From: Nocardia ninae NBRC 108245
GTDB taxonomy: Bacteria; Actinomycetota; Actinomycetes; Mycobacteriales; Mycobacteriaceae
NCBI RefSeq assembly: GCF_007990755.1
Contig: NZ_BJXA01000006.1
Span: 62,001-126,000, forward strand
Direction of reading: 5' to 3'
Length of the DNA stretch: 64,000 nucleotides
A program made the position numbers and the translations under genes. Shown in pieces: positions 28,305 to 33,415 of this stretch. The notes under the pieces were generated by a model, which ran no database searches, was not told the origin of the DNA, and was given only the letters and a program-made list of their open reading frames with translations. Numbering within the stretch: position 1 is the first letter of the stretch; every line of letters starts with the position of its first letter.

Positions 28305-29261
28305 ATGGCTGAAGTACTTGTGCTCGTTGAGCACGCAGACGGTGCGCTCAAGAAGGTCAGCACCGAGCTCCTGACCGCCGCCCGCAACCTGGGTGAGCCC
28401 GCCGCCGTTGTGCTCGGCACCGCGGGCACCGGCGAGAAGCTGGCCGACGCGCTCGCCGCGGCCGGTGCGGAGAAGATCTACATCGCCGAATCCGACGACG
28501 TGGAGAACTACCTGCTGACCCCGAAGATCGACGTGCTCGCCGCGCTGACCGAGCAGGTCTCCCCGGCCGCCGTCATCGTCGCCGCCTCGGCCGACGGCAA
28601 GGAGGTGTCGGGCCGCCTCGCCGCGCGCATCGGCTCCGGTCTGCTGGTCGACGTCATCGACGTCAAGTCCGACGGCACCGCCGTGCACTCCATCTTCGGT
28701 GGCGCGTTCACCGTCGACGCCAAGGCCACCGGCGACGTGCCGGTGATCTCGGTGCGCCCGGGTGCCATCGAGGCGTCCGCGCAGGCCGGTGCCGGCGAGA
28801 AGGTCACCGTCGAGGTGCCCGCGCAGGAAGACGGCGTGGTCAAGGTGACCGCGCGCGAGCCGATCGTCGCCGGTGACCGCCCGGAGCTCACCGAGGCGAA
28901 CATCGTCGTCTCCGGTGGTCGTGGTGTCGGTTCCGCCGAGAAGTTCTCGGTCGTCGAGGAACTGGCCGACTCGCTCGGTGCCGCCGTCGGCGCCTCGCGT
29001 GCCGCGGTCGACTCGGGCTACTACCCGGGCCAGTTCCAGGTCGGCCAGACCGGCAAGACCGTCTCGCCGCAGCTCTACATCGCCCTCGGCATCTCCGGCG
29101 CCATCCAGCACCGGGCAGGCATGCAGACCTCGAAGACCATCGTCGCGGTCAACAAGGACGAAGAGGCCCCGATCTTCGAGATCGCGGACTACGGCATCGT
29201 CGGCGACCTGTTCAACGTCGCCCCGCAACTGACCGAAGCGGTCAAGTCGCACAAGGGCTGA
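28305..29261 (+). CDS. etfA: Electron transfer flavoprotein, alpha subunit
   Basis: FAD-carrying subunit of ETF. The 318-residue protein begins [19 protein letters not shown] and contains the alpha-subunit FAD-binding signature ([18 protein letters not shown] ... [19 protein letters not shown]). ATG 28305 is preceded by AGGAGA. The operon ends 25 bp later at a strong hairpin. Position matches Rv3028c (fixB). Confidence 0.97.
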
Positions 29262-29285
29262 GATAACCTCAGCTCGCTCGAACAT

Positions 29286-29318
29286 GGTGGCCCCGACTGA
29301 AATTCAGTCGGGGCCACC
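29286..29318 (+). terminator. Strong hairpin terminator after etfA
   Basis: A 16-bp near-perfect stem (GGTGGCCCCGACTGAA with its complement) with a tiny loop, followed by TTGTCGTT. Confidence 0.85.
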
Positions 29319-29410
29319 TTGTCGTTGCTGGGTGATCCGATGACGAGAGCAGCTAGTGTTTTCGGGGGGCACGCGCTGCGCGGGTTCTGCGGACATCGGG
29401 GGAGGGCTGC

Positions 29411-29980
29411 ATGGTTGATGTCGATGGCGGGGGAAGTCTGCAAACGGAGTCGGCGGCACCGACACTGGACGGTGGCCTGCCGATGTCTGCTCGACAGGAA
29501 CAATTCAGTCTGGCCTTTATTCGTATGGTTGCCGCCGCTGCGGGCTGTTCGATCAAGGGCCATGAGACCGACTACGACGGAGTCGACATCACGATCGTCG
29601 CGTCCGCAGAATATGCGAGATACTACTGTCCAGAATTCGAGATGCAGCTCAAGTGCACCACGCAGAGTCGGCTGCTCCAGGCCGACCATCTGGCATGGTC
29701 GATGAAGCGCGACCACTTCCTCAAACTGGGGAGCCCCAAGCGCTTCACGCCGGCGATACTCGGCGTCCTGCTCATACCGGAGGATCCTGATCAACTACTC
29801 GACCTTTCCGAGGCAGGCCTGACCACTTCGAGCCGCATGTACTGGGAACATGCGAAGAAGCTCGGCGGGATCGAGGATGGGAAGGCCAGCAAAACGGTCC
29901 ACCTGCCCCGAAGCAATCTGTTCGACGTGGGCAGTCTTCGGGGCATCATGCAGGTAATCGGCGAAGGAGGTCAGTGGTGA
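29411..29980 (+). CDS. DUF4365 nuclease-like protein, first gene of a two-gene cassette
   Basis: A 189-residue protein of the DUF4365 type. After an N-terminal helix (QEQFSLAFIRMVAAAAGC) come D-Y-D-G-V-D-I and then E-M-Q-L-K-C, matching the D...(D/E)xK core of PD-(D/E)XK nucleases as they appear in DUF4365. ATG 29411 is five bases after GGAGG. The last four bases overlap the GTG of the next gene. Base composition is visibly lower in G+C than the flanking etf and ndh genes, suggesting transfer. DUF4365 proteins occur in mobile and defence-associated settings; nuclease activity here is inferred from the motif only. Confidence 0.7.
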   Translation: MVDVDGGGSLQTESAAPTLDGGLPMSARQEQFSLAFIRMVAAAAGCSIKGHETDYDGVDITIVASAEYARYYCPEFEMQLKCTTQSRLLQADHLAWSMKRDHFLKLGSPKRFTPAILGVLLIPEDPDQLLDLSEAGLTTSSRMYWEHAKKLGGIEDGKASKTVHLPRSNLFDVGSLRGIMQVIGEGGQW

Positions 29981-31131
29981 GGAAGATCCCGCTCGATGCT
30001 CTCCAGGAGATCGCGTCCTCTTTGTCGCCTCCGGCCGTGTCCCAATACCTTGCGAGCCACGATTGGCAGCTGGAAGCTCGCGACCACAATGTCAAGGAGA
30101 TCTGGCGGTTGCCGGGAGAGGACGGCCTCCTCGGTCGGGTGATGCTGCCGTTGGCTACCGATTACGTCGACTTTCCAACGCGTTTTCGGGACACCCTCCA
30201 AGCTCTGGCCGCGATCTACGATTGGGATCCCGCGCATCTGGCGGAACGCATCACCGCAGCGCGTGCCGATCTCTTCTTCGTGCGGCTCGACCAGGAAATG
30301 ACCGACGGGACGATCCCGTTTCGGCAGGGAGAAGCGACGCTGGAAGCATTACTAATCATGATGCGGGCCGCCGCGACAACTGCTGACGACCCGACTCATT
30401 CGCACCGCGGTAGAAGGTCGGCTAAGGTCACCGAATTCCTGGAAGAGGATGTCCGTCTCGGGCACACGAAACCCGGCAGCTTCGTATTCACAGTCGTAAC
30501 CCGTCTCGGTGATGTCCTGCCGCCACACGAAGACGGGTCGCCGACCGTACCTTTCCCGCGCAAGGTGATGACAACGTTGGCCACGGGTCTGCAGTCCACC
30601 AAGCAGCTGGCGCTCGATTGGGACGAGAGCGCGCTCGACCGGTCCGGGCAGCTGGGGCTCAGCGCCGGCTTGGTGGAGTCGGTGCTGGAGTTGACTCAGC
30701 CGGAAACGCTACGCGCACTTGACCTATCGTTCGATTGGGCGGCCGCGGAGCCGCCACCGGAGGTCAGCACGTCGCGAATCATCGTCGATCGCAATGCAAT
30801 GGCCGGCTTGCCTCGCGTCCGGGAACGGCTGGTCCGACGCGAGGAGCCGCCGCGCTACACGACGCTGCTCGGCACTGTGCGCACACTCAACCGGGATGAC
30901 CTCGGTGACGAGGATCAGGAAGCCACCAGCATTGTGCTGTCGACACATGTGGACGGCCGCCCGCGGAAGGTCCATGTCCCACTGGCGGGCCAGGAATACG
31001 GCTGGGCGATTCGTGCGCACCAGAGCAGGCAACCGATCGTTGTGTCGGGTGATTTGATCTTCGAACGTGGTGTTTGGCGGCTTACCGGAGACATCAGCGT
31101 GGACCCGAGTTTCATAGACCGCCAGCCCTGA
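29977..31131 (+). CDS. Unrecognised 384-residue protein, second gene of the DUF4365 cassette
   Basis: No family was recognised. GTG 29977 is chosen over GTG 29974 because it sits six bases from GGAGG and gives a GTGA overlap with the upstream stop, so the two proteins are made together. Visible features: N-terminal SLSPPAVSQYLASHDW, a central region rich in charged residues (RLDQEMTDGTIPFRQGE; GRRSAKVTEFLEED), and a C-terminal segment of alternating strands (LLGTVRTLNRDD, STHVDGRPRKVHVPLAG, PIVVSGDLIFERGVWRL) that could be an OB-like fold. No transmembrane or signal segment. Base composition is low like its partner. The function is unknown; a nucleic-acid-binding partner of the DUF4365 nuclease is a reasonable hypothesis. 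Confidence 0.75.
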   Translation: MRKIPLDALQEIASSLSPPAVSQYLASHDWQLEARDHNVKEIWRLPGEDGLLGRVMLPLATDYVDFPTRFRDTLQALAAIYDWDPAHLAERITAARADLFFVRLDQEMTDGTIPFRQGEATLEALLIMMRAAATTADDPTHSHRGRRSAKVTEFLEEDVRLGHTKPGSFVFTVVTRLGDVLPPHEDGSPTVPFPRKVMTTLATGLQSTKQLALDWDESALDRSGQLGLSAGLVESVLELTQPETLRALDLSFDWAAAEPPPEVSTSRIIVDRNAMAGLPRVRERLVRREEPPRYTTLLGTVRTLNRDDLGDEDQEATSIVLSTHVDGRPRKVHVPLAGQEYGWAIRAHQSRQPIVVSGDLIFERGVWRLTGDISVDPSFIDRQP

Positions 31132-31153: not shown

Positions 31154-32011
31154 TCAGGTGCGGTGTAGGGCGGCGAGCAGGGTGGTGAGGATGGGGGAGC
31201 GGCGGGCGTCGCTGCGGAGGACGGCGGAGACGGGGATGCGGAGTTTGTGTTCGGCCAGTTTCAGGACGACGAGGCCCTCGGTGGGGCTTTCGGCGTAGAG
31301 GACCGTCCAGGCGTCGGGGCGGTTGATGAGTTCCATGGTTGCGGTGTGGTCGGGTGGGATCGGGGGGCCGAAGGTGGGGCCGGTGGGGAGCTCGGCGAAC
31401 GCGGACCGAATCACGGTGTGTAGCAAGACTTGTTCCTGCTCCGGCGGCAGCAGTAGGGGATACCGGCTGAGGTCGGACAGGGTGACGGTTTCTCTGGTGG
31501 CGAGCGGGTGGGCGCTCGAGGTGGCGATGACCAGATCCTCGACCCACAGTTGCTCGACCTCGAGGCCGGGCTGATCGACGCTGCCGCGGATCAGTGCGAG
31601 ATCGCAGTCGCCGTCGGCGACCGCGGTGATCCGCTGCCGGAACGGTTTGATCACGAACTCGATCTCCGCCTCGGGATGCGTGGCGCGGGCGCCCGCGATC
31701 GCCGAGAGCGACCTCGTCGCGAAGGACATGTTCGCGGCGAGCCGGATGCGCGGCCCGACGGTGCGTACCGCGGCCCGGATGGCCGACTCGAGGCTCAGCA
31801 TCTGTTTCGCAAGGGGAAGTAGCCGTGCAGTGGCGTCGGTGGGTACGACTGATCTTGTGGAGCGCTCGAACAACGAGACGCCCAGATCGCGCTCGAGCCG
31901 GGAGATTTGATGGCTGATCGCCGACTGTGAGATAAAGCACCGTGCGGCGGCACCGCTGAAGCTGAGCTCCTCGCAGACGGCGACGAAGTAGGTGAGCTGC
32001 CGAAGTTCCAC
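31154..32011 (-). CDS. LysR-family transcriptional regulator
   Basis: A 285-residue LTTR. The N-terminal winged helix-turn-helix is clear (LRQLTYFVAVCEELSFSGAA, SQSAISHQISRLERDLGV), followed by an effector-binding domain. GTG 32011 is four bases after GGAGG. It is divergent from ndh across 111 bp, the usual LTTR arrangement, so it probably controls ndh and itself. The effector is unknown. It is convergent with the DUF4365 cassette; CCGCACC (31141-31147) and GGTGCGG (31157-31163) could form a short hairpin at that junction. Confidence 0.92.
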   Translation of the reverse strand: MELRQLTYFVAVCEELSFSGAAARCFISQSAISHQISRLERDLGVSLFERSTRSVVPTDATARLLPLAKQMLSLESAIRAAVRTVGPRIRLAANMSFATRSLSAIAGARATHPEAEIEFVIKPFRQRITAVADGDCDLALIRGSVDQPGLEVEQLWVEDLVIATSSAHPLATRETVTLSDLSRYPLLLPPEQEQVLLHTVIRSAFAELPTGPTFGPPIPPDHTATMELINRPDAWTVLYAESPTEGLVVLKLAEHKLRIPVSAVLRSDARRSPILTTLLAALHRT

Positions 32012-32122: not shown

Positions 32123-33415
32123 ATGCAGTACGTGGATGCGGGAATCGAAACCGCGGGTGTCGTCATCGTCGGATCGGGGTTCGGCGGACTCTCCGCCGCC
32201 AAGCAACTTGCCAAGTCGGGTATCGATTACGTGCTGATCTCCAGCACGCCGGAGCACCTGTTCCAACCGTTGTTGTACCAGGTAGCGACCGGTGTGCTGG
32301 CATCGGAGGAGATCGCGCCGCCGATCGCCTCCATTCTGCGCCGTCACCGTGAGGCCGATGTGCGTCTCGGCAAGGTCGTGGCGATCGACCCGGACAAGGC
32401 GATCGTCACTTATGAGCACGACGGCGAGCAGCGCCGCATCCGGTACGGCTCGCTGATCGCCGCCACCGGCGCCAGCCAGTCCTACTTCGGCCGTGACGAT
32501 TTCGCCGAGAAGACCTTCTCGCTCAAGACCATCGACGACGCGAAACTGCTGCGCGCGCAGATCCAGCGGGTCTTCGCCGAGGCCGCGGGCGCCGACGAGG
32601 AGACCAGGCGCAGGCTGCTGAGCTTCGTGGTCGTCGGAGCGGGCGCGACCGGCGTCGAGGTGGCCGGGCAGCTGAAGGAACTGGCGAAAAGGTACTACCA
32701 CCAAGAAGTTTCGGTCACCCTGGTCGAGGGTGCCGGTGAGGTGCTGCCACCGTTCGGCGGCGGGCTGTCGGAGTACGCGAAGAAGTCGTTGACCCGCACC
32801 GGCGTCGACGTGCTGCTCGGCACCTTCGTCACCGACATCGAGCACGGCAAGGTCACCGTCAAGGACAAGAGCGGCGTCAAACGCGACATCGCGGCCGAGA
32901 CCATCGTCTGGTCGGCCGGTGTGCAGGTGGGCGGGTTCGCCAAGGTGCTGGCCGAGGCCACCGGCGTCGAAACCGACCGGGCCGGACGGCTGTTGATCAA
33001 CCCCGACCTGACCGTCGGCGGCTACGCCGACATCTACGCGATCGGCGACATGACCTCGCTGAACGGCTACCCGGGCCAGTCGCCGGTGGCCATGCAGGAG
33101 GGCAGGCACGCCGCCGACATCATTCGCCGAAAGAAGCAGGCGGGCACCGCGTTCAAGTACTGGGACAAGGGCAGCATGGCGGTGATCAGCCGGTTCAGCG
33201 CGGTGACCAAGCTGAACGACAAGATCACCTTCCGCGGGCTGATCGCCTGGTTCATGTGGCTCGCGGTGCACCTGTTCTACCTGGTCGGTTTCCGTAACCG
33301 CTTCGCCGCTGTGGCGTCGTGGCTGGTCGCCTTCATCGGCACCGGGCGGCCCGGGTTCGCCGAGGTGGAGAAGACAGCCAAGCTGTCGCCGGTGTCCGAA
33401 CGTACGGCCGCTTAG
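32123..33415 (+). CDS. ndh: Type II NADH:quinone dehydrogenase (NDH-2)
   Basis: Non-proton-pumping oxidation of NADH with reduction of menaquinone at the membrane surface. The 430-residue flavoprotein has the FAD motif VVIVGSGFGGLSAAK, the NADH motif FVVVGAGATGVEVAGQL, the second FAD contact YAIGDM and the quinone-site motif around PVAMQEGRHAA. C-terminal amphipathic and hydrophobic helices (LIAWFMWLAVHLFYLVG) anchor it. ATG 32123 follows AGGAGG. The gene is divergent from lysR and terminates at a perfect hairpin. In M. tuberculosis ndh is elsewhere, so this copy belongs to the inserted segment. Confidence 0.93.
   Translation: MQYVDAGIETAGVVIVGSGFGGLSAAKQLAKSGIDYVLISSTPEHLFQPLLYQVATGVLASEEIAPPIASILRRHREADVRLGKVVAIDPDKAIVTYEHDGEQRRIRYGSLIAATGASQSYFGRDDFAEKTFSLKTIDDAKLLRAQIQRVFAEAAGADEETRRRLLSFVVVGAGATGVEVAGQLKELAKRYYHQEVSVTLVEGAGEVLPPFGGGLSEYAKKSLTRTGVDVLLGTFVTDIEHGKVTVKDKSGVKRDIAAETIVWSAGVQVGGFAKVLAEATGVETDRAGRLLINPDLTVGGYADIYAIGDMTSLNGYPGQSPVAMQEGRHAADIIRRKKQAGTAFKYWDKGSMAVISRFSAVTKLNDKITFRGLIAWFMWLAVHLFYLVGFRNRFAAVASWLVAFIGTGRPGFAEVEKTAKLSPVSERTAA

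Follow-up and report, generated by a model that had tools for sequence, protein, structure and literature searches.

A two-gene PDC-M02 candidate defence pair with a predicted DUF4365 nuclease between etfA and a LysR gene in Nocardia

A short operon of two overlapping genes, here called A and B, lies between etfA and a LysR-family regulator gene in Nocardia ninae, within the 64-kb stretch of DNA that was analysed as a whole (the window). A sequence-only reading had described it as a nuclease-like gene coupled to a partner of no recognised family, raising the questions of what the pair does and how it came to stand at this site.

Composition and family membership of the gene pair

Both open reading frames are present with the GTGA overlap of four bases that had been read from the sequence, and each is preceded by a Shine-Dalgarno-like sequence (Table 1). 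An alternative GTG start of B at 29974 would add one residue, and AAGGAGG at 29964-29970 suits the start at 29977 better. The lower G+C content noted earlier is borne out: positions 29411-31131 stand at 0.618 versus 0.682 for the 64-kb window, and 0.2% of 623 windows of 1721 bp, taken across it in steps of 100, fall below the pair. The five windows of lowest G+C all overlap the pair, and GC3 of A (0.70) and B (0.73) is the lowest against 53 called genes of the window. The names etfA, LysR and ndh follow the sequence-only reading and our own reading of the sequence.

Table 1. Positions of the gene pair, its signals and its flanking genes in the window.
Feature	Position	Strand	Description
gene A	29411..29980	+	DUF4365, 189 aa, PADLOC PDC-M02A, predicted PD-(D/E)XK nuclease
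gene B	29977..31131	+	384 aa, PADLOC PDC-M02B; proposed sensor or activator
predicted catalytic core of A	29585..29653	+	D59 29585-29587, Q79 29645-29647, K81 29651-29653
probable C-terminal OB fold of B	30841..31128	+	residues 289-384, model and fold search
Shine-Dalgarno-like sequence of A	29398..29406	+	read in sequence
Shine-Dalgarno-like AAGGAGG of B, within 3' end of A	29964..29970	+	read in sequence
terminator-like hairpin between etfA and A	29282..29322	+	
etfA	28305..29261	+	left flank of turnover site; other genomes carry duplicates of its 3' end
LysR-family regulator	31154..32011	-	right flank
ndh-like gene	32123..33415	+	right flank

By profile comparison, A-B is a member of the PADLOC candidate defence system PDC-M02. 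A matches PDLC04280 (M02A) with E 1.6e-79 over profile positions 8-180 of 182, and B matches PDLC04308 (M02B) with E 1.3e-172 over positions 1-385 of 391. The two genes stand together, as PDC-M02 would need under an adjacency rule that we assume, and nothing found contradicts membership. PDC-M02 itself is a candidate family only. In the accessible text of PMC12988326, which refers to a preprint of 2024 from Payne and colleagues, PDCs are 'guilt-by-embedding' candidates, most of which await experiments, and M02 goes unmentioned in that text. Our literature search found the name PDC-M02 in no paper and no phage test of the A-B pair; among papers naming DUF4365, none is evidently about the pair by title and abstract.

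The sequence-only reading had asked whether the two genes occur together elsewhere. They do so in Nocardia, in another genus of the class, on plasmids of four phyla and in temperate phages. Counting its own genome each time, 17 of 99 genomes have B and 38 of 118 genomes of the genus have A; at least eight further A matches in the genus lie outside the fetched regions, one of which (L020) has both genes. Away from the etfA site, A and B are adjacent at 19 of 20 loci, the remaining one being a contig end, and at 7 of 8 loci of the other genus. A phylum-wide search, with five candidates scored per genome, returns at least 9 of 396 genomes, again including its own. The nearest B proteins, in one scan of named genomes, are those of Nocardia suismassiliense (97%), N. 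brasiliensis (88%) and N. vulneris (87%).

Among 72,556 plasmid records, 15 carry B, and these belong to Actinomycetota, Pseudomonadota, Spirochaetota and Bdellovibrionota, making PDC-M02 a family that spans several phyla. Twelve of the 15 were examined, with H3, H11 and H14 left out as near-duplicates by organism, identity and size; together with one prophage they give 13 regions, and A and B are adjacent in 12, one of them by a weak match (E 0.002). The B of Pigmentibacter has no A detectable by HMM, and the preceding open reading frame is A-like over 17 residues only (E 0.088, probability 0.65%). Leptospira phage LE1 carries both genes 2 bases apart, and single-protein scans of viral contigs return 0 and 1 loci. 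In the Mycobacterium abscessus prophage record MW584173 (L193, L226), the pair occupies gene positions 1-2, with the tyrosine integrase at the other end, and WXG-motif and polymorphic-toxin genes follow it by a few genes.

Both genes are under purifying selection. Comparing the 13 pairs that are intact at the etfA site gives a median dN/dS of 0.10 for A (74 of 78 comparisons usable) and 0.08 for B (77 of 78); the LysR gene, compared in 9 genomes, has 0.08, and ndh, in 8 genomes, has 0.16. A and B are therefore both kept by selection.

Predicted folds of the two proteins

The assignment of A to DUF4365 (PF14280) is upheld at 50.3 bits against a gathering cut-off of 24.3. Its core had been read as D...ExK-like; the D and K are present, and the actual form is D59...E77-x-Q79-x-K81. 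Among 32 homologues, D59 and Q79 are invariant (32/32 each), K81 is kept in 31, and position 77 is E or D in 28. In TmuRE, a DUF4365 nuclease, the accessible part of the report (PMC10810196) gives Q62 and K64 as the potential active site; the Q79-x-K81 spacing of A equals this QxK pair, a match by motif between unaligned proteins. The structure model of A has a PD-(D/E)XK nuclease fold, with the SPARDA nuclease domain as best match (residues 21-188 of A on 3-151 of a 390-residue chain), followed by Hjc structures, and it resembles EcoRV too. From these comparisons, A is very probably an active nuclease.

That B belongs to no recognised family is correct for Pfam, with no family above cut-off, and for NCBIfam, with no match; the description gives way to membership in PADLOC PDC-M02B and a weak match to phrog_27927, a family of unknown function. 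BldD-like and UBA-like Pfam matches of B were rejected as far under their cut-offs. By sequence, PDB offers only HTRA2 hits confined to a short stretch (0.019-0.042) and pol III chi (~0.9). The proposed OB-like C-terminus is supported by model and fold search, which give a probable OB fold resembling PriB and SSB. Residues 1-285 drew no match in the fold search, the match list being filled by the OB part. A known enzyme was sought for B and rejected on the Pfam and NCBIfam results; B likewise matches no housekeeping enzyme in the sequence and fold searches, residues 1-285 being barely probed by fold. Pfam searches with B and 31 relatives, reaching to matches at E 0.1, bring up no Piwi family, though a divergent one could escape them. 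On comparative grounds, we give even chances to B being a sensor or activator.

The same folds could be read as DNA repair or recombination, with A as a Hjc-like junction nuclease and B as its SSB-like helper; the Hjc structures among the next-best matches of A and the PriB- and SSB-like C-terminus of B agree with this. A core repair function fits poorly with the patchy presence of B, the decay at the etfA site described below, the unusual composition and the carriage by plasmids and phages, leaving this explanation highly improbable. The archaeal Hjc resolvases themselves share the PD-(D/E)XK fold with A and differ in that A has a conserved partner and accessory rather than core contexts.

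The interval between etfA and the LysR gene

The site was surveyed in 61 genomes, comprising the window and 60 of its 63 best-ranked relatives. Downstream of etfA, 13 of them have both genes intact, 2 have an intact B but no intact A, 8 retain relics, and 38 show no trace of the pair. One pair (G152) was scored intact despite a divergent N-terminus of A, and for 15 of the 38 genomes the absence covers only the 4.7 kb examined (1.6 kb for G009), which ends short of LysR. The two genomes with intact B carry it beside a disrupted or missing A (L109 in G056, L129 in G102). Intact A without B occurs at the site in 0 of 61 genomes. The interval of G025 (L169) combines a B relic with a type I methyltransferase, DUF262/HEC-06-like and type I restriction enzyme-like proteins. 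Elsewhere, it carries a kinase, a Uma2 protein and a kinase-like APH gene; a PadR-ABC transporter set; or a methionine-synthase-like gene. The gap between etfA and LysR is a turnover site and, given this varied cargo, a general one rather than purely a defence island.

The sequence-only reading had taken the pair for an insertion between etfA and LysR-ndh. In 7 of the 60 Nocardia relatives the gap between etfA and LysR measures just 70-290 bp. A fresh, private insertion was considered and set aside, as A and B distances track those of etfA (Spearman 0.87 and 0.80, over 55 pairs among 11 of the 13 intact-pair genomes, G123 and G152 being left out). The pair is mostly a vertically inherited resident of the turnover site. 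The accompanying comparison with Mycobacterium tuberculosis gene order would say little, because etfBA and ndh are presumably not neighbours there. G110 and G120 are 0.054 apart in B and 0.179 apart in A, and G022 behaves alike, which suggests, from these distances, exchange of A alleles apart from the adjacent B in G120 (L101) and G022 (L099). The terminator type seen in 11 of 13 pair-bearing genomes was rejected as a marker, similar hairpins also occurring without the pair.

In a toxin-antitoxin or addiction system, the DNase A would be toxic and B would neutralise it, the pair persisting because cells that lose B die. The small overlapping operon, its presence on some plasmids and the survival at the etfA site of intact B without intact A, never the reverse, all accord with such a system. 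A count of two versus zero, however, carries no weight, eight genomes retain nothing but relics, some copies adjoin chromosomal defence-type genes, and B far exceeds A in size, which is unusual for an antitoxin. We hold addiction to be quite improbable.

In 8 of the 61 genomes, the etfA 3' end recurs within the interval, the second copy scoring 51-215 bits (L088 in G051, L101 in G120, L100, L097, L089, L099, L102 and L108), compared with chance scores of at most 34.6 bits for etfA tails against the same three unrelated 5-kb pieces; a ninth genome reaches 31.9. The copy directly follows the A-B pair in 6 of the 8 genomes and comes before the relic in G025 and G052, two genomes with relics. Those of G051 and G120 show 119 and 114 identical bases to the stop codon and diverge soon after, and the starts of three copies, around etfA codon 280, fall no more than 8 bases apart. 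In the eight genomes, no match to the tyrosine-integrase family PF00589 was found up to 100 kb from the site on its contig, two of these contigs being just 33 and 44 kb long. The Nocardia ninae window has no etfA tail copy. As the simplest reading, the duplicated sequences suggest that incoming DNA arrives with an etfA tail of its own, which takes the place of the resident one.

Proposed role and comparison with known systems

Several copies of the pair lie near known defence genes. A full-length PglW (1436 bits) stands less than 0.5 kb from the pair in G026, and a DruH of Druantia III (1672 bits) one gene away on Rhizobium p3. On Entomospira p28, DUF262 proteins adjoin the pair and AbiD lies about 4 kb off; on a Streptomyces aurantiacus plasmid, the pair has type I-E cas genes at a distance of about 2 kb. 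In G022 the pair has a DrmMI-like gene as its immediate upstream neighbour and a DrmA-like gene about 6 kb off on that side, and in G024 it has a DrmA-like gene directly downstream; a DISARM label is tentative because, of 14 control genomes, 6 also give a match to the DrmA model and 5 to the DrmMI model. With PADLOC run on 96 neighbour and 114 control genes, PglW, DrmA, DrmD, DrmMI, HmaA and SoFic appear near the pair only, among the families listed (25 of 69 and 25 of 44). Given this extent of the lists and the promiscuous kinase, ATPase and methylase models in both, we claim no neighbour-to-control ratio. On this comparative evidence, together with the PADLOC listing, the earlier remark that the operon has the shape of a defence system is supported.

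Some copies lie near restriction or DUF262-type genes, and the fold of A resembles those of EcoRV and Hjc, as would suit a type IV-like two-component restriction system in which A would cut at a particular modified base or a site that B recognises. Against it, the Pfam matches of B and its 31 relatives include no base-recognition domain such as SRA, and no methylase gene adjoins the window pair. We regard restriction of this kind as unlikely.

Defence is the likely role of the pair by comparison. It fits best because a nuclease-like effector and a probable nucleic-acid-binding partner share one operon, are carried by some plasmids and temperate phages and in several places have known defence genes as neighbours. 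With somewhat less assurance, we favour a two-gene anti-phage or anti-plasmid PDC-M02 module in which B senses and A cuts. A would act as a metal-dependent PD-(D/E)XK DNase. Infection would be marked by a nucleic acid, most likely replication DNA in single-stranded or branched form, to which the OB-fold C-terminus of B would bind; B, once bound, may form a complex with A that positions or activates it. A would then cut DNA, with the phage genome destroyed (clearance) or the infected cell stopped (abortive infection). PDC-M02 thereby gains a testable mechanism, pairing a SPARDA-type nuclease with a non-Argonaute-looking partner, and residues to mutate. The two genomes with B and no intact A, and a four-gene variant described below, add further material, and the Nocardia site lets empty, occupied and decayed states be compared.

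Among known two-gene systems, the defence of Gordonia phage CarolAnn, compared because its host is related, was set aside as different: the accessible text of PMC6426606 points to a protein with a weak match to DUF4747 and a membrane protein. Closer are operons of the order in which homologues of A and B, at about 20% identity to those of the window and in the same order, are followed by C, a conserved gene product of about 190 aa, and D, an AAA/HerA-like ATPase of 1031-1166 aa. C and D follow the pair in 7 of 19 loci of the order, and C alone is called in an eighth, L160 (the loci being L151-L155 and L158-L160); two C proteins scanned have no Pfam family. The window pair has neither gene, being flanked by etfA and the LysR gene.

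A shares its nuclease fold and a D...QxK motif with SPARDA, whose nuclease is of the DUF4365/DREN-APAZ kind. The SPARDA nuclease is fused to APAZ, whereas A is without it, there being no room for APAZ in a protein of 189 aa whose residues 21-188 correspond to the SPARDA nuclease domain. The SPARDA partner is a short Argonaute, and B is not recognisably one. A broader picture, which we put forward tentatively and consider doubtful as a whole, is that PDC-M02 may be a guide-free relative of SPARDA in which an OB-fold sensor B replaces Argonaute, and which in Nocardia would enter at the etfA 3' end with its own etfA tail, by integrase-less exchange at one site. Should B turn out to be a sensor, effector nucleases of an already known kind would have a second mode of control that needs no guide.
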